64,000 nt of DNA from Brachybacterium fresconis. GTDB lineage: Bacteria > Actinomycetota > Actinomycetes > Actinomycetales > Dermabacteraceae. The stretch is taken from positions 4,402,001-4,466,000 of the forward strand of contig NZ_JAGIOC010000001.1 in assembly GCF_017876515.1 (NCBI RefSeq). Reading direction: 5' to 3'. Made by a program: the position numbers and the translations under genes. Of the stretch, positions 49,187 to 57,231 are shown in pieces (positions within the stretch are counted from its first letter, which is position 1; each line of letters begins with the position of its first letter). The notes below the pieces were generated by a model. It was given only the letters and a program-made list of their open reading frames with translations. It had not been told where the DNA came from and did no database searches.

Positions 49187-52171
49187 TCAGACCACGATGT
49201 TCACGATCTTCGGGGCCCGCACGATGACCTTGCGGATGCTCTGGCCCTCGAGCAGCTCCTGGACCCGCTCCTCGGCCATGACCCGCGCCTCCAGGTCGCT
49301 CTCGGAGATCTCCGGGTCCACCTCGATCCGGTGGCGCACCTTCCCCTTGACCTGGATGACGCAGGTGACGGCGTCGGCCTTGACGAGCTCGGGATCGGCG
49401 ACCGGGTAGGCGACGCGCGAGATGGAGCCCTCGTGCCCCAACCGCGACCACAGCTCCTCGGCCAGGTGCGGGGCCATCGGCGAGACCATCAGCACCAGTG
49501 GCTCGACGGCCTCGCGCGGGGAGGATCCGAGCTTGGTCAGATGGTTGACCAGCTCGATCAGCTTCGCGATCGCCGTGTTGACGTGCATCTGGGACATGTC
49601 CCGGTCGACGCCCTCGATCGTGCGGTGCGTGGCCTGCTTCGTGGCCAGATCCGCAGGCTCGTCGGAGACGACCAGCTCGCCGGTCTCCTCGTCGACGACA
49701 AGGCGCCACAGCCGCTGCAGGAACCGCTGGGAGCCGACCACGGCCCGGGTCTCCCAGGGCCGCGAGAGGTCCAGCGGGCCCATCGACATCTCGTACACCC
49801 GCAGGGTGTCCGCGCCGAACTCCTCGTACATGTCGTCCGGGGCGACAGCGTTCTTCAGCGACTTGCCCATCTTCCCGTACTCCTGGGTGACGGGCTGTCC
49901 CTGGTAGGTGTACGTGCCGTCGTCCTCGGCCACGACCTCTTCCGCCGGGACATAGACGCCGCGGGAGTCGGTATAGGCGTAGGCCTGGATGTACCCCTGA
50001 TTGAACAGGCGGTGGTACGGCTCCTGGCTGGAGACCACGCCGCGATCGAACAGCACCTTGTGCCAGAAGCGTGCGTACAGCAGATGCAGCACCGCGTGCT
50101 CCTGCCCGCCGACGTAGAGGTCCACACCGCCGACGCCCCCGTCCTCGCGCGGGCCCAGCCAGTACTGCTCGTTCTCGGCCCGCACCAGGACGTCGTCCTC
50201 GGTGGGGTCGATGTAGCGCAGGTGATACCAGGACGAACCCGCCCACTGCGGCATCGTGTTCGTCTCGCGCAGGTACGTCTTCGGCCCCTCGCCCAGGTCC
50301 AGCTCGACCTCGGCCCACTCGGTCGCCCGCGACAGCGGGGTCTGCGGCACGGAGTCGGCGTCCATCGGGTCGAAGGTCTTGGGGGAGAAGTCCGCGACCT
50401 CCGGCAGATCCAGCGGCAGCATCGACTCCGGCAGCGCGATCGGCACCTCAGGGCGCTCGGGATCGTAGACGATCGGGAACGGCTCACCCCAGTAGCGCTG
50501 GCGGGAGAACAGCCAATCCCGCAGGCGGTACGTGGTCCGGGCCCGGCCGAAGCCCTTCTCCTGCGCATACCGAGTGGCGCGATCCTTCGCCTCGTCCGGG
50601 TCCAGACCGTTCAGATCCAGCTCGGCGCCGGCGGAGTTGATCTTCTCGCCGTCCCCGGTCCAGGCGCCGCCGTCGAAGTCGTCCGGCGGGCGCACGGTGC
50701 GGATCACGGGCAGCTCGAACGTCGTCGCGAACTCGAAGTCACGTGGGTCCTCGGCCGGGACCGCCATGATGGCGCCGGTGCCGTACCCGGTCAGCACGTA
50801 GTCCGCGGTGAACACCGGCAGCTCGCGGCCGTCCATCGGGTTCTTCGCGAACAGGCCGGTGAACACCCCGGTCTTCTCGCGCCCCTCGGCCGTGCGCTCC
50901 TCCTCGCCCAGGGAGGCGGCGCGCACCCCGTAGGCCTCGACGGCCTCGTGCGGGGTCGCCGCACCGCCCGTCCACGCCGCGAGGGTGCCCTCGGGCCACT
51001 GCGACGGCAGGGCCGAGGGGTCCGACAGCAGCGCATGCTCCGGGGACAGCACGCAGAAGGTCGCCCCGAACAGGGTGTCCGCGCGGGTGGTGAAGACGTC
51101 GAAGCTCGCCGGCCCCGCGCCCGCCGTGCCCGGAGCATCCTGCGCGGCATCTGCCGGCCCGGTGCCCTCCAGCCCGAGGACGTCGAAGGTGATCTGCGCG
51201 CCGTGGCTGCGGCCGATCCAGTTGCGCTGCATCGTGCGGATCGACTCCGGCCAGTCCACCCGCTCCAGATCGTCGATCAGTCGGTCGCCGTAGGCGGTGA
51301 TGCGCATGTTCCACTGGCGCAGGCGGCTGCGGAAGACGGGGAAGTTGCCGCGTTCGGAGCGCCCGTCGGCGGTGACCTCCTCGTTGGCCAGCACGGTGCC
51401 CAGGCCGGGGCACCAGTTCACCGGGGTCTCGGAGATGTAGGCCAGGCGGAAGGAATGGGCCAGCTCCTCGATCTCCGTCGCGGAGGCCCCGGGAACGTCC
51501 GCGGCCGAGCGGGCTGACCAGGCCTCGGGGAGCTCGACGCTCTGGCGCTCGGCCAAGGCGAAGGGGTCGACCCGGCCGGTGCGCAGCTCCTCGCGCAGTT
51601 CGGCGATCGGACGAGCGCGACCGGTGATGCCATCGGCGTTCGGCGCCTCGGGGTCGTACCAGGAGTCGAAGATCTGCAGGAAGATCCACTGGGTCCACTT
51701 CACGAACTGCGGATCCGTGGTCGCCAGCGAACGCCGCGGATCGTGCGAGAGGCCCAGGCGGTGCAGCTGGCGGCGCATGGTCGCCACGTTGGCCTCGGTG
51801 GTGGTGCGCGGGTGGGTCCCGGTCTGGACCGCGTACTGCTCGGCGGGCAGGCCGAAGGCGTCGTACCCCATCGTGTACAGCACGTTCTTGCCCAGCATGC
51901 GCTGGTGGCGGGCGACCACGTCGGTCGCGATGTAGCCCAGCGGGTGGCCCACGTGCAGCCCCGCCCCCGAGGGGTAGGGGAACATGTCCATGATGTACAT
52001 CTTCTCAGGCGGCGTCGCGGAAGCGGCCTGCTCGAGCGACTCGGCCGAGCCGCGCAGCGCACCGACCGGGTTGTCGGCGTAGAAGGTGCCGTCCTCGTCC
52101 CAGCGCTGCTGCCAGCGGCGTTCGATCTCGTCCGCCACCGCGGCGGTGTAACGGTGCGGGGCCTCGCTCAT
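49187..52171 (-). CDS. leuS: Leucyl-tRNA synthetase
   Basis: A 994-residue class I synthetase, longer than the E. coli enzyme, with an expanded N-terminal and CP1 region. HIGH appears in [16 protein letters not shown], the second-half signature as [13 protein letters not shown], and the CP1 editing domain lies between. It charges tRNA-Leu and edits misacylated products. The ATG at 52171 follows GGAGGA; an upstream extension has no family sequence. The leader before it holds a short peptide with three consecutive Leu codons and a U-tailed terminator, so expression is probably attenuated when Leu-tRNA is plentiful. Confidence 0.97.
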
Positions 52172-52230
52172 GGGTGAATCGTCCTCCGAAGGATCAGTGC
52201 GGCGGATGCCGCCAGGCGTCTCGTGACATG

Positions 52231-52254
52231 AAAAAACCCTCGCGCATGCGAGGG
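52231..52254 (-). terminator. Attenuator: U-tailed terminator hairpin in the leuS leader
   Basis: CCCTCGC-ATGC-GCGAGGG followed by six T, the only classical intrinsic terminator with a U-tract I see in the window. It lies 59 bases before the leuS start and 39 bases after the leader-peptide stop. The left arm can alternatively pair with CACGTGTGGG about 15 bases upstream (8 of 10 positions including one G-U), a candidate antiterminator. Confidence 0.8.
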
Positions 52255-52293
52255 GAGCCGCACCGGTGCCCACACGTGCGCACCGCAGGCGCT

Positions 52294-52359
52294 TCAGGAG
52301 CGCAGGGTCGGCGCAGGCCTTGTCCGATGCGGCTGCGTAAGCAGCAGCCGTCCAGTCAC
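52294..52359 (-). CDS. leuS leader peptide (21 residues, three consecutive Leu codons)
   Basis: A GTG-started reading frame of 21 residues, [15 protein letters not shown] at its start, with CTG CTG CTT as codons 5-7 and a fourth Leu near the end, ending TGA. It begins 6 bases behind a TAGGAT -10 hexamer, so the mRNA would be leaderless, a common situation for actinobacterial leader peptides. Ribosome stalling at the Leu run when Leu-tRNA is scarce would free downstream RNA to form an antiterminator and allow leuS transcription. This is the logic of amino-acid attenuators; its use for leuS is inferred from position and structure. Confidence 0.7.
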
Positions 52360-52365
52360 GTCCGC

Positions 52366-52394
52366 ATCCTACCGCGCCCCCGGTGCGGCCCGAA
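52366..52394 (-). promoter_or_regulatory. Predicted promoter of the leuS leader transcript
   Basis: On the minus strand, TTCGGG (52389-52394, weak) and TAGGAT (52366-52371, good) are 17 bases apart. The expected transcription start falls on or next to the GTG of the leader peptide at 52359. Confidence 0.55.
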
Positions 52395-52439
52395 GGAGGG
52401 CCGGCCGGGAGCGCGGGGTCAGGGCGGGGCGTCGGGCGC

Positions 52440-53852
52440 TCAGGCGCCGGGAACGTCCTCGACGGGGAAGTGCGGATCCGGCTCACCGAAGCCCTCGGGG
52501 AGCGTGACCGGACAGAACTGCTGCATCGTGGGGTCCACGTACTGCTGGGCCTCCGTGACCAGGTTCTCGGGGGTGTCCGAGGCCTGGTTGAGGCTGCCCT
52601 GCATGGTCATCATGGCGTCCCACAGCTTCGTCCCGACCGGCAGCGGGGGACGGGACTTGGCCACGCCCAGCAGCTCCACGAAGAACTTGATGTCCCGATC
52701 CCAGCCCTTGGGATCCTCGATGGTCTCGATGTTGGTGGGGATACGGCTGATCTGCGGCATGAGGATCTTCTGGCCCTCGTAGCCCGCGTAGAACGTGAAG
52801 AAGTCCCAGGCGGCCTTGGACATGCTCGCGCCCTTCGGCATCGTCAGGGCGAAGCCGCCCGCCCAGGTGAAGGGCTCGTCGCCCTCCTCCGGCACCGGAA
52901 GGTGGGTGACCGTGTACTCCATGTCGGGCTTGTAGTCCGCCTGGGACTGGACGCCCCAGGGCCCGGTGATCTGGAACAGCTGCCGGTCCGAGAAGAAGGA
53001 GGTCTGCGTCGGCGGGGCGTTCGGCGGCTGGTAGGTCGCCTTGAAGGCGTCCAGCCGGGCGAAGTCCAATCGCTCGATCCAGCCGGCGTACATCTCGGCC
53101 ACGGCCAGCATCTCCGGGGAGTCCAGCAGCGTATGGCAGGTCTCGTTGGAGAAGAACGTGACGCCGTTGGCCATCGCCCACATCAGCAGAGAGGCCTGGT
53201 CGTCCCAGGGGATCCAGGTCACCTTCTCGTAGGTGCCGCTGTCGTCCTGCACGTTGAACGCGTCGTTGATCTCCCAGAGCTGTTCGTAGGACATCGGCCC
53301 GTTGGCCGGGTCCAGCAGGGATCGGTCGATGCCGGCCTCGTCGGCCAGCCCCAGGTTCACGTACATCCCGCGGGTGTCGGTGTCCATCGGCAGCCCGTAG
53401 TACTGACCGTCGTAGTACAGCTCGTCGGTGGCGAACTTGACCCATCCGGCCATGAACTCCTCGACGCTGACGTCCTCGTGCTCCTCGATGAGGCCGTCGA
53501 TGGGTTCGAGCAGACCGAGGGAGGCGAACTGTGCGCCGTTGAACCGGTCCATGAAGTAGATGTCCGGGCCGGTGCGGCCGCGGACTGCCGTGATCACGCT
53601 GGAGGCATCGCCCTGGCCGTTGGAGGGCACCTGCGAGACCTCGATCTTGACATCGGGGTTCTGCTCGGAGAAGGCCTCGATGACCTGCATCTCCTTCTCC
53701 TGGTCCGAGGCCCAGATGCCCCAGACGCGCACCGTGTTCGGGTCACGGTTCTCGCCGACGGGACGGTTGGTGCAGCCGACGATCGAGCCGCCGGCGAAGG
53801 TGACGCTGGCGCCGGCGCCGAGGGCGCGCAGCAGGGTTCGACGATCGATCAC
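52440..53852 (-). CDS. Sugar ABC transporter substrate-binding lipoprotein
   Basis: A 470-residue extracellular binding protein of the carbohydrate CUT1 type. It has a twin-Arg start ([14 protein letters not shown]), a hydrophobic h-region and lipobox IVGC with acylated C27; the binding domain begins [20 protein letters not shown]. The start GTG at 53852 overlaps the permease stop (GTGA). It is the last gene of the importer operon, an unusual place since binding proteins are commonly first. The ligand is unknown; no glycosidase is in the cluster. Confidence 0.9.
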
Positions 53853-54772
53853 TTGAAACCTCCGAGGGTGATGCCGCTGACGAAGTAGCGCTGGAAGATG
53901 AAGAACAGGATCACCAGGGGGAGCAGCACGAGGAACGAGGCCGCCATGAGCAGGTTGAACTGGACGTCCTGGGAGTTCACGGAGCGGAAGACCTCCATAC
54001 CGATGGACAGCGTCTGCTTGTCCTCGTCCTGCAGGTAGATCAGGGGTCCCATGAAGTCGTTCCACGTGCCGACCGCCGCGAAGATCGCGATCACCGTGAC
54101 GGCGGGGCGGGCGGTCGGGAACACGATGCGCCAGGCGATGGACCATTCGCTGGCCCCGTCGACCCGGGCGGCGTCGAGCATGTCGCGTGGGGTCTGCAGC
54201 ATGAACTGGCGCAGCAGGAAGGTGAAGAACCCGCCCGCGAACAGCGCCGGGGCGATCAGCGGGACCCAGGTGTTGACGAACCCGAGGCCCGCCCACATGT
54301 CGAACATCGGGATCAGGGTCACCGGGAACGGCAGGAACAGGGTGGCCAGCACGATGAAGAACACCTTGTTGCGACCGGGCCATTCGATGCAGGCGAAGCC
54401 GTACGCCACGATGAAGTTCGAGATCACGCTGAACACAACCACGCTGATCGTGATGATCGCGCTGTTGCGGAAGAAGGTCCAGAACGGCATCACGGTGACC
54501 GCGTCCGAGAAGTTCTCCCAGCGCAGCTCCGTCGGGAACAGCGTGGGCGGGAACTGGGCGAGCTCCTCCGGCGTCTTCAGCGCGGAGATGATCATCCAGT
54601 ACACGGGCAGGGAGAACAGGACCAGGACCACGAGCATGACCAGGCGTGAGATCCACGCGCTGACCGCTGTGGGACGCGAGCCGTCGGCATTGCGCCCGTA
54701 GTTGGAGCGGGACTTCAGCTTCGGCGCATTGCCGAGATTCTTCGTCCCGGAGTCGAGTGTATTGAGAGCCAT
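53849..54772 (-). CDS. Sugar ABC transporter permease (MalG/CUT1 type)
   Basis: A 307-residue permease with six membrane spans after a polar N-terminus (about 1-40) and the EAA loop MLDAARVDGASEWSIAWRIVFP. It forms the channel with the following upstream-encoded permease. It starts 18 bases behind that gene, and its stop overlaps the binding-protein start. Confidence 0.92.
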   Translation of the reverse strand: MALNTLDSGTKNLGNAPKLKSRSNYGRNADGSRPTAVSAWISRLVMLVVLVLFSLPVYWMIISALKTPEELAQFPPTLFPTELRWENFSDAVTVMPFWTFFRNSAIITISVVVFSVISNFIVAYGFACIEWPGRNKVFFIVLATLFLPFPVTLIPMFDMWAGLGFVNTWVPLIAPALFAGGFFTFLLRQFMLQTPRDMLDAARVDGASEWSIAWRIVFPTARPAVTVIAIFAAVGTWNDFMGPLIYLQDEDKQTLSIGMEVFRSVNSQDVQFNLLMAASFLVLLPLVILFFIFQRYFVSGITLGGFK

Positions 54773-54790
54773 GGTTTCTACCTCAGTTCC

Positions 54791-55810
54791 TCAGCCGGCC
54801 GACACGTCGTAGTTCACGAACCGGCGCGAGAGCCAGTAGATGAGTCCGGCCAGCAGCATGCCGAACAGGAACAGCAGCACTGCCAGAGCCGAGGCGAAGC
54901 CGAGCTGCCCGTAGGAGAAGGCGTTGCGCCAGAGGTACAGCATGTAGAACAGGGTCGAGTTGTCCGGACCGCCGTCGGTCATGATGAACGCCTCGGTGAA
55001 CACCATCATGGCGCCGGAGACTCCCGTGATCAGGTTGAACAGGATCGTGGGAGTCAGCAGCGGGACGGTGATCGCGAAGAACTGACGGAAACGGCTCGCG
55101 CCGTCGATCCGGGCGGCCTCGTAGAGGGTCTCCGGGATGTTCCGCAGGCCGGCGAGATAGATCAGGGCCGCATTGCCGGCGCCGAGCTGGGCCATCACGA
55201 TCATGACGATCTTCGCGTAGCGGGGATCGCCCAGCAGGTTCGTGGCCGGCATCCCGAACAGTCCCAGGAACTGGTTGACGATGCCGTACTGGGGATTGAC
55301 GAACACGATGAAGATGAACGACAGCGCGAACATCGGGATCAGCGAGGGCAGGTACAGCAGCGTCCGGTAGAGCGCGACCTCGCGGACGTTGCGGTTCATC
55401 GCCAGGGCCAGCAGCAGTGCCACCACGAGCCCGATCGGGACCGCGAGGAGCATGTAGTAGACGGTGTTGCCCACTGCGGTATGCAGCAGCGGATCGACGA
55501 AGGCCGCGATGTAGTTCTGGAACCCGATGAACGTCGGGGACTGCATGCCCGAGTACTGGGTCAGGCTGATCACGAAGGAGTAGACCAGCGGGTAGACCAC
55601 GAAGACCGCGACCCCGATGATCCAGGGCGAGATGAACAGCAGGCCCACCCGGAGGTTGCGCTTCTCCCGCCCGGTGAGCTTCCGCTTGCCCGATCTCCCT
55701 CCCGTCGTGCCGTCACGGGCCCCTGGCCCGCTGCGCGCAGTGAGGTCAGCGGCGGAGCCGGATGTTCCGGTTCGGGGGGTGTCCGCCGCGACGGCGTTGC
55801 TGGCGCTCAT
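54791..55810 (-). CDS. Sugar ABC transporter permease (MalF/CUT1 type)
   Basis: A 339-residue permease with a polar, Ala/Thr/Ser/Gly-rich N-terminus (about 1-50) and six spans; EAA loop LYEAARIDGASRFRQFFAITVP. It lacks the large extracytoplasmic loop of the first cluster's MalF. First gene of the importer operon, divergent from a ROK regulator with a palindrome in between. No ATPase gene is present, so a shared MsiK-like ATPase encoded elsewhere is expected. Confidence 0.92.
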   Translation of the reverse strand: MSASNAVAADTPRTGTSGSAADLTARSGPGARDGTTGGRSGKRKLTGREKRNLRVGLLFISPWIIGVAVFVVYPLVYSFVISLTQYSGMQSPTFIGFQNYIAAFVDPLLHTAVGNTVYYMLLAVPIGLVVALLLALAMNRNVREVALYRTLLYLPSLIPMFALSFIFIVFVNPQYGIVNQFLGLFGMPATNLLGDPRYAKIVMIVMAQLGAGNAALIYLAGLRNIPETLYEAARIDGASRFRQFFAITVPLLTPTILFNLITGVSGAMMVFTEAFIMTDGGPDNSTLFYMLYLWRNAFSYGQLGFASALAVLLFLFGMLLAGLIYWLSRRFVNYDVSAG

Positions 55811-55915
55811 CGCTCTCCCTTCGGGTACGTACCGCGCCGCCCTCGGTGCGGTGAAGCGGGAGCAGTAGGCGTCGGTGCCTCGCGGATCCGTGGGGAGAAG
55901 GGGCCGCGTCGTCCC

Positions 55916-55937
55916 GTGTGAGGTAGGTTACTCACAC
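55916..55937. promoter_or_regulatory. Presumed operator of the ROK regulator
   Basis: A perfect 7-base inverted repeat, GTGTGAG-N8-CTCACAC, lies between the divergent importer operon and the ROK gene, and covers the -10 of the importer promoter. A second palindrome GCTTAAGC is at 55959-55966, nearer the ROK gene. Confidence 0.7.
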
Positions 55938-55953
55938 CGATGGACATATGCAA
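55925..55953 (-). promoter_or_regulatory. Predicted promoter of the second sugar importer operon
   Basis: On the minus strand, TTGCAT (55948-55953) and TAACCT (55925-55930) are exactly 17 bases apart. The -10 sits inside the 22-base palindrome, so a bound repressor would exclude RNA polymerase. Confidence 0.6.
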
Positions 55954-55995
55954 TAACCGCTTAAGCACTCGCGTCGGCGGTCGGAGGGAGGCCCC

Positions 55996-57231
55996 GTGCG
56001 CGGCTCATCGATGACGGACATCGGCGCGTTCAACGAGAAGCTCGTCCTGCAGACGATCCGCAGCGCCCCGGACGGGATCGGTCAGGCGGAGGTGGTCCGG
56101 CGCAGCCAGCTCTCCCGCCAGGCGGTCTCGCTGATCGCCCGGCGCCTGCTGGCCGACGGGCTGGTGGAGCAGGCGGGCACGCGGATCTCCGGGCCCGGCA
56201 AGCCGCACACGCTGCTACGGGTGGTCGCCGACGCCCGGCTCGCCATCGGCGTGCATCTGGACCCGGCGCACATCGCCGTGGTGATCTGCGATCTCGCAGC
56301 GCGCCCGGTGGCTCGCACGACGCTCGCGCCGCCGACGGAGGATCCGCGCGCGGATCTCGAACGGGTCGCCGGGGCGATCGCGGAGCTGAGCCGCTCGCTG
56401 GGGGCGAGCGGACCGGTGCCGGGGGAGGGGGAGGCAGTGCTGTCGACCCATCGTCGCCTGCTGGGGATCGGGATCGCGGCCCCGGCGGGACTCGACGCCG
56501 ACGCCGGGATCCTGCGCAATCCCCCGTGGATCCCGGGGTGGCGGGACGTGCCGGTGGTCGATGCGCTCAGCGCCGTCACCGGATTGCCCGCGACGCTGGA
56601 CAAGGACACCAACGCCGCGCTGACCGGGGAGATCTGGACGCGGCACCTCGATGCCGCGCAGACGATCCTGTACCTGTACGTCGGGCACGGGGTGGGATCG
56701 GCGGTCAGCGGAGGAGGCCGGGTCCACCGCGGCGGCAGCACCCAGGCGGGGGAGATCGGCCACCTGCCCATCGGCCGGGCCGATCGGATCTGCAGCTGCG
56801 GCCGTCACGGGTGCCAGAGCCTGTACACCGATGCGCACGTCCTGGTCGCCGCCGCCCGCGAGGCAGGGATCGCGATGTCGGGGAAGGTGGGGACGACGGC
56901 GGCGCTCCACGCCCTTGCGACCGCCGCGGCGGACGGCTCCGAGGCGGCGCGGGCGATCATCGGCTCCCATGCGAGTGCGCTCGGAGAGGCGATTCTGATC
57001 CTGGCCGGGGTGCATGATCCGCAGCGGATCATCATCGGCGGGCCCACCTGGCCCGCACTGCGCGACGTCGGCGAGGCGGAGGTGCGCCGGGTGCTCGGGG
57101 ACTGGCTGGAAGACACCGCGGGCGTGCTGGAGTCCTCACATCTGGGCGATGACGTCGGGGCCATCGGCGCGGCGAGCCTCTTCCTCGAGCAGGAGCTCGC
57201 GCCCGGCACCGGGGCGCCGGTGGGGACGTAG
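55996..57231 (+). CDS. ROK-family transcriptional regulator
   Basis: A 411-residue NagC/XylR-type repressor: winged helix-turn-helix at about 15-75 (QAEVVRRSQLSRQAVSLIAR) and an ASKHA-fold ROK domain beyond residue 80. The structural zinc motif reads CSCGRHGCQS, with all cysteines but Ser in place of the usual Glu after GCx. The kinase-type Asp-Thr-Asn (DKDTNAAL) is altered relative to ROK sugar kinases, fitting a regulator. The GTG at 55996 follows GGAGGG; an ATG five codons on is an alternative. It probably controls the divergent importer, responding to its sugar. Confidence 0.9.
   Translation: MRGSSMTDIGAFNEKLVLQTIRSAPDGIGQAEVVRRSQLSRQAVSLIARRLLADGLVEQAGTRISGPGKPHTLLRVVADARLAIGVHLDPAHIAVVICDLAARPVARTTLAPPTEDPRADLERVAGAIAELSRSLGASGPVPGEGEAVLSTHRRLLGIGIAAPAGLDADAGILRNPPWIPGWRDVPVVDALSAVTGLPATLDKDTNAALTGEIWTRHLDAAQTILYLYVGHGVGSAVSGGGRVHRGGSTQAGEIGHLPIGRADRICSCGRHGCQSLYTDAHVLVAAAREAGIAMSGKVGTTAALHALATAAADGSEAARAIIGSHASALGEAILILAGVHDPQRIIIGGPTWPALRDVGEAEVRRVLGDWLEDTAGVLESSHLGDDVGAIGAASLFLEQELAPGTGAPVGT

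Follow-up and report, generated by a model that had tools for sequence, protein, structure and literature searches.

The leuS gene of Brachybacterium fresconis is preceded by a leader which, judged by its conservation, is very probably a ribosome-mediated transcription attenuator that would make leuS respond to charged tRNA-Leu. The window, i.e. the whole stretch of 64,000 nucleotides analysed, harbours this leader on its minus strand between position 52371 and the leuS start at 52171. Its parts and the gene are as follows.

52366 to 52371, minus strand: -10 hexamer TAGGAT of the TANNNT class (in all 38 genus genomes a TANNNT precedes the leader start by 6-7 nt)
52357 to 52359, minus strand: GTG start codon, predicted to be leaderless, at the expected transcription start 6 nt after TAGGAT
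52294 to 52359, minus strand: leader peptide ORF of 21 codons plus stop (M, three residues and LLL in 38 of 38)
52339 to 52347, minus strand: putative regulatory Leu codons CTG CTG CTT, codons 5-7
52324 to 52334, minus strand: region 1, AGCCGCATCGG, 5' arm of the covarying helix
52256 to 52266, minus strand: region 2, CCGGTGCGGCT, 3' arm of the covarying helix
52237 to 52254, minus strand: terminator hairpin CCCTCGC-ATGC-GCGAGGG, regions 3 and 4, also present in 37 of 38 genus leaders
52231 to 52236, minus strand: U tract of the terminator, T6, read from the sequence
52182 to 52187, minus strand: Shine-Dalgarno-like GGAGGA of leuS, read from the sequence
49187 to 52171, minus strand: leuS, leucyl-tRNA synthetase, 994 aa, ATG at 52171, assigned by TIGR00396

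The LeuS protein scores 835 bits against TIGR00396, the cut-off of which is 548.4. A variable loop separates the leader ORF from the terminator, which is the sole terminator-like site on either strand of 51600-52800 (shuffle mean 0.2). Since a two-hexamer sigma-70 scan of the same interval gave no promoter, the -10 hexamer alone is seen upstream of the leader. An earlier note, made from the letters of the window, had named this hexamer, a GTG start at the place expected for the transcription start, a 21-residue frame with three consecutive Leu codons and a U-tailed terminator ahead of leuS, all of which are present. It had read them as a leucine leader-peptide transcription attenuator with a leaderless ORF, and the conservation of these parts supports this reading.

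The leader search matched all 38 Brachybacterium genomes of our genus sample, the window's own included. The common layout before leuS consists of TANNNT, 6-7 nt, RTG, three codons and three Leu codons; the spacing between -10 hexamer and start amounts to 6 nt in 37 leaders and to 7 nt in one, and the start codon is GTG in 33 and ATG in five of them. Codon 5 is occupied by five different Leu codons across the genus, which we count in favour of the attenuator, codon 6 is CTG or CTC, and codon 7 is invariably CTT (38 of 38). The leader peptide has a length of 8 in 14 leaders, of 21 in 21 leaders, and of 12, 15 and 20 in one leader each, while the distance from leader start to leuS ranges from 142 to 210 nt. 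Under a rule which demands a stem of at least five pairs and at least four T among the next eight bases, a terminator is found in 37 of the 38 leaders. The exception, L040 (430-533), retains LLL as well as the helix between regions 1 and 2 and shows a terminator-like hairpin without a U tract. As regards a transcription start downstream of the terminator, the second refutation named in the earlier note, no TANNNT is present between terminator and leuS start in any of the 37 leaders (of 38) used for this check. In the leader alignment which the earlier note had proposed, the Leu run is hence kept throughout and the terminator in all genomes but one; the lack of conservation which it had named as a refutation did not occur.

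As far as a comparison of sequences can tell, the supported core of the leader is formed by the terminator and a helix adjoining it, in which region 1, AGCCGCATCGG (52334-52324), pairs with region 2, CCGGTGCGGCT (52266-52256). RNAalifold applied to 39 leaders (the 38 of the genus and L071) yields a structure with region 1 paired to region 2 and the terminator formed. Covariation of the ten-pair helix 1:2 was assessed against 500 shuffles in 42 leaders from genus, order and class. These remained of 49 chosen leaders after L040, L171 and L175 had been dropped for having no terminator under the above rule and L071, L077, L131 and L152 for unusual loop or terminator lengths. The cells of the helix are paired to 97.4% (90.7% in the shuffles) and 45 cells are changed on both sides (11.4 in the shuffles), neither value being equalled in any of the 500 shuffles. 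The covariation score, inflated by kinship among the 42 leaders, amounts to 0.294 compared to a shuffled mean of 0.158 and to at most 0.090 upon sliding; it is likewise unequalled in 500 shuffles. Two measures are weaker, namely the number of pairs changed on both sides (4 vs. 2.6, reached by 27 of 500 shuffles) and that of further pair types (9 vs. 7.8, reached by 82 of 500). Six of the ten pairs are invariant in the 42 leaders and hence uninformative. In the window, the fold from region 1 to the terminator has an energy of -55.6 kcal/mol (z -2.88, reached by none of 200 shuffles), a result which is favoured by setting the ends at the helix; the fold energy of the whole stretch 52230-52370 is not unusual (z -1.14). 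Among the leaders whose sequences were read, those of Micromonospora, Plantactinospora, Catellatospora, Hamadaea, Geodermatophilus and Blastococcus carry the helix GCCGTGC/GCACGGC. This is a paired change which turns an Arg of the peptide into Cys; therefore it is the RNA, not the peptide end, that is kept.

The earlier note had placed the alternative pairing elsewhere, between CACGTGTGGG (52278-52269) and CCCTCGCATG. This pairing sits in the variable loop and stays at chance level: when the best ungapped 10-mer within the 30 nt before region 2 is considered, 8 of 10 pairs are attained in 14 of the 38 genus leaders (window included) and more in none, and with the stretch shuffled at least eight pairs arise in 235 of 760 cases. 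The stem covariation which the note had suggested looking for was found in the AGCCGCATCGG/CCGGTGCGGCT helix, which it had not named.

In the proposed mechanism transcription would begin at the leader GTG, and ribosomes would translate the leader without the aid of a Shine-Dalgarno site. If leucyl-tRNA is ample, they would clear the Leu codons, region 1 would pair with region 2 and the adjacent terminator would form. If it is scarce, a ribosome would stall at CTG CTG CTT and its footprint would mask much of region 1, whose 11 nt occupy positions 5 to 15 after the last Leu codon. Region 2, set free in this way, would block the terminator; the simplest way to do so would be to pair with the 5' arm and loop of the hairpin. 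Transcription would then proceed into leuS. On comparative grounds, the predicted sensing of leucine is well supported.

A pairing of region 2 with region 3, the putative antiterminator, comprising at least five pairs is possible in 36 of the 42 leaders; its stability does not exceed that obtained after shuffling of region 3 (0 of 42 at ≤0.05, mean z +0.69), so that the energy test does not support it. With the upstream sequence included, 2:3 pairing is kept in 20 of the 42 leaders, the window leader keeping none. Removal of 8 of the 11 nt of region 1, counted from its 5' end, leaves the terminator in the minimum-energy fold of the window leader; region 2 then finds its partner upstream, in a quasi-copy of region 1, GGCCTGCGCCG (52319-52309, minus strand), which lies within the extended part of the leader ORF. 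The absence of excess stability in the 42 leaders and the pairing with the quasi-copy once most of region 1 is gone speak for a variant of the attenuator with the same leader and the same sensing, in which no 2:3 hairpin is involved. Here, terminator efficiency would drop because helix 1:2 is lost, in concert with the stalled ribosome or with a species-specific pairing between region 2 and upstream sequence. We consider this variant, whose probability overlaps with that of the attenuator reading to which it belongs, rather unlikely. Against it, the energy test is of low power, since region 3 stays C-rich when shuffled and readily pairs with the G-rich region 2; as much of region 2 never varies, 2:3 pairing lies beyond the reach of the covariation test there; moreover, antiterminator hairpins of leuS have been reported in Streptomyces (Fig. 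4 legend of PMC1262725). As a point against the attenuator reading, an excerpt of the same paper describes codon changes in leuA and ilvB of S. coelicolor which are at odds with the predictions of classical attenuation.

Far less probable, indeed very unlikely, is translational control in the manner of the LEU element of leuA, with the Leu codon run pairing to the Shine-Dalgarno site of leuS. The LEU element resembles the leuS leader as a Leu-rich leader in actinobacteria, yet is described as a pseudoknot in which Leu codons are paired to the Shine-Dalgarno site (excerpt of PMC1262725); LeuL1 of S. lividans is described as devoid of a typical terminator (excerpt of PMC8079986). Such control would agree with a Leu-rich leader standing ahead of a Leu-related gene and with a Leu run that matches at least 4 nt of the 25 nt before leuS in 31 of 38 genus leaders as opposed to 17 of 38 when shuffled once; CTCC against GGAG would yield 4-nt matches of this kind. 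However, matches of 5-6 nt are not commoner than in the shuffled set (5 of 38 vs. 8 of 38), and the base stem of the LEU element between Leu codons and Shine-Dalgarno site is not found in the window's leader, where the longest match comprises 2 nt. Furthermore, 37 of 38 genus leaders possess a U-tailed terminator, and the Shine-Dalgarno site is situated outside the covarying helix.

The preferred reading, transcription attenuation, has a precedent. Seliverstov et al. 2005 predicted classical leuS attenuators in S. avermitilis and S. coelicolor (excerpt of PMC1262725), and an excerpt of an RNA-seq-based re-annotation of S. lividans reports, upstream of leuS, the leaderless peptide LeuL2, MRAVRLLLSEPR, followed by a hairpin and uridines, and also lists leaders for trpS, alaS and thrS of strain TK24 (PMC8079986). 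The opinion of the earlier note that an attenuator on the synthetase itself is unusual in actinobacteria does not stand up to these excerpts, in which the leuS version is already predicted or reported. The Brachybacterium element is homologous to the Streptomyces leuS attenuator, so that the type of device is already known. Both precede the same gene and share a leaderless Leu-rich leader, a U-tailed terminator, a GCCGCG helix after the Leu codons whose complement adjoins the terminator and, in the Streptomyces leaders read, CTT as the last Leu codon. They differ in the stop codon: in the Streptomyces leaders read, a TGA within region 1 closes an ORF of 12 codons, whereas the window's leader has CCGCATCGGA in region 1 instead of CCGCGCTGA and thereby lacks this stop, its ORF extending to 21 codons. 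The IlvL/ilvB attenuators of Streptomyces and Corynebacterium, of which that of C. glutamicum ilvBNC is the subject of a 2025 paper (excerpt of PMC11857589), are alike in combining a short leader, regulatory codons and a terminator, but they use Ile/Val/Leu codons and control a biosynthetic gene. Literature searches of full text and of titles and abstract starts, extending to few subscription papers, returned no description of a leuS attenuator outside Streptomyces. In the available excerpts of PMC3896937, PMC9413887, PMC11995493 and PMC2494555, "leuS" refers to the surname Leustek, to a Corynebacterium gene neighbourhood or to T-boxes, with no attenuator mentioned, and that of PMC13236596 on M. 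tuberculosis ilvB1 attenuation does not mention leuS.

At the gathering threshold, no Rfam family, T-box included, matches in the window. At E ≤5, the interval 52100-52500 yields three weak hits below gathering which are unrelated and none of which is a T-box; permissive searches of the relatives L176, L249 and L263 likewise yield weak unrelated hits, all below gathering. The RNA element defined here is thus one that had no Rfam match in the sequences searched. T-boxes place a synthetase gene under control of the state of its tRNA. They do so by tRNA binding, whereas the leuS leader would be translated. Before ileS, T-boxes have been described in several actinobacteria (excerpt of PMC1262725).

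Beyond the genus, all nine other genomes of the family were read and the leader is present in two of them (L071, L077). Among 78 leaders of the order from outside the family, 16 contain a leaderless ORF with consecutive Leu codons, compared to 1 of 78 in the reverse-complement control and a mean of 1.6 in shuffles. The 78 were taken from the LeuS matches listed for the order; not among them are the good matches G130, G132, G145 and G158, the partial ones G084 and G163 and, with the exception of G051 and G068, the genomes of low score. In G130 a covariance-model match lies directly before leuS. A frequent ending of the order leaders is CTNCTT ACC NRG CCGCGC TGA, i.e. LL(T/S)xPR-stop. The pattern CTNCTNASCNRGCCGCGCTGA, which leaves the third base open in both Leu codons, gives one match each in 56 of 393 class genomes and none in the backward control. 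Of the 56 loci 30 were fetched; each of them is followed on the same strand by a LeuS match at a distance of 95-239 nt, and a leaderless start is present in 29. In one large genus, f34 g84, all genomes but one carry the pattern (42 of 43). We take this genus to be Streptomyces because 11 of its 16 fetched leaders read MRAVRLLLSEPR, the S. lividans LeuL2 peptide.

Of the best 80 named loci, 51 show a leaderless Leu leader after removal of L242, a false positive without the core (52 with it; 1 of 80 in the reverse-complement control). They comprise all 32 Streptomyces loci, 17 of which encode a peptide identical to LeuL2, and 19 of 48 others (20 including L242). Apart from Streptomyces, the carriers among these 80 are Micromonospora, Plantactinospora, Catellatospora, Hamadaea, Geodermatophilus, Blastococcus, Kibdelosporangium, Lentzea, Amycolatopsis, Actinophytocola, Saccharopolyspora, Actinoallomurus, Glycomyces and Brachybacterium (3 of 3), so that the leader occurs in Micromonosporaceae, Pseudonocardiaceae and others. 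It was not found in the loci among the best 80 from Mycobacterium, Mycolicibacterium, Nocardia, Corynebacterium, Gordonia, Rhodococcus, Frankia, Isoptericola, Cellulosimicrobium, Actinotalea, Microlunatus and Acidimicrobiia, each represented by one to few loci in a scan that misses forms with another -10 or spacing. A covariance model built from the 42 leaders (R2) has hits at E ≤0.001 in 131 of 295 class genomes, a tally which takes in leaders of other genes as well as some model-building sequences; its one match at this threshold in the window's genome is the leuS leader itself, a member of the building set. The known range of this device, hitherto Streptomyces, hereby grows to include a wide variety of actinomycetes, and its core helix is backed by covariation.

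CTT accounts for just 2 of the 206 Leu codons in four window genes. As the last Leu codon of the leader it is nevertheless present in 55 of the 56 pattern loci of the class, in 47 of the 49 chosen leaders (CTC in L071, CTG in L171), including all 42 retained, and in 49 of the 51 named leaders among the best 80 loci (CTG in L253, CTC in L263). No structural reason for CTT at this position (52341-52339 in the window) was seen. The position of the stop codon varies: a TGA lies inside region 1 in the class-wide hits, where the pattern itself demands it, 14 of 38 genus leaders have an ORF of 8 codons with the stop at the edge of region 1, and the window leader and 20 others of the genus have a 21-codon ORF that stops beyond it. 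A stop that moves in this manner is consistent with a device that depends on the Leu codons and on the RNA which follows them, and not on the peptide end. Together, the near-fixed rare CTT and the movable stop offer a clean case for how leaderless leaders may sense charged tRNA.

That there is no regulation at all and an ordinary terminator merely follows a chance ORF is extremely improbable: short ORFs are common in GC-rich DNA, 61 of at least 20 aa occurring over 50000-57000, but the -10 hexamer, its spacing and the Leu run are kept in 38 of 38 genus genomes, the reverse-complement controls give just 1 of 78 and 1 of 80, and helix 1:2 covaries. Next to negligible is an N-terminal extension of LeuS, for although the open frame continues beyond 52171 as far upstream as 52486 (49187-52486), leader lengths vary among genomes from 142 to 210 nt and the U-tract terminator falls inside.

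The leuS covariance model also matches Streptomyces ilvB leaders, and 20 of the regions matched by it, mostly second or weak matches, were read. Fifteen of them (L304-L307, L311-L321) precede a citramalate synthase (cimA)-like gene, identified by a 57-residue probe with 81-98% identity in 15 of 15; the best match of a 76-residue piece is TIGR00977 with 106.7 bits, the cut-off of 450 applying to the whole protein. These 15 leaders resemble attenuators in that they combine a run of two or three Ile codons with a U-tailed terminator; by the TANNNT rule a leaderless start is present, in a longer frame, in at most three of them. A search of titles and abstract starts gave no description of an attenuator-like cimA leader. 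Three of the 20 regions encode the Streptomyces IlvL peptide or one close to it. The remaining two, L302 (G051) and L303 (G068) of family f6, carry a leaderless MRAILLLS leader before a weakly matching LeuS of a shorter type, with open frames of 893 aa (G051) and 846 aa (G068), as if the Leu leader had been kept through a replacement of the synthetase. Tentatively, and as a possibility that we hold to be less probable than not, leuS, cimA and ilvB may share one old attenuator design of the Actinomycetes by putative common descent. In this design a rare last codon (for Leu nearly always CTT) would abut a GC helix, usually stop-bearing, beside the terminator; it would have been kept at leuS despite a different, weakly matching synthetase and might switch without the classical 2:3 antiterminator.

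Among the LeuS matches listed for the order, families f6, f10, f13, f14, f17, f18 and others show a weak LeuS match with open frames of 831 to 1,333 aa and stand beside families with the strongly matching type. One genome, G192, harbours two LeuS-matching frames about 3 kb apart.
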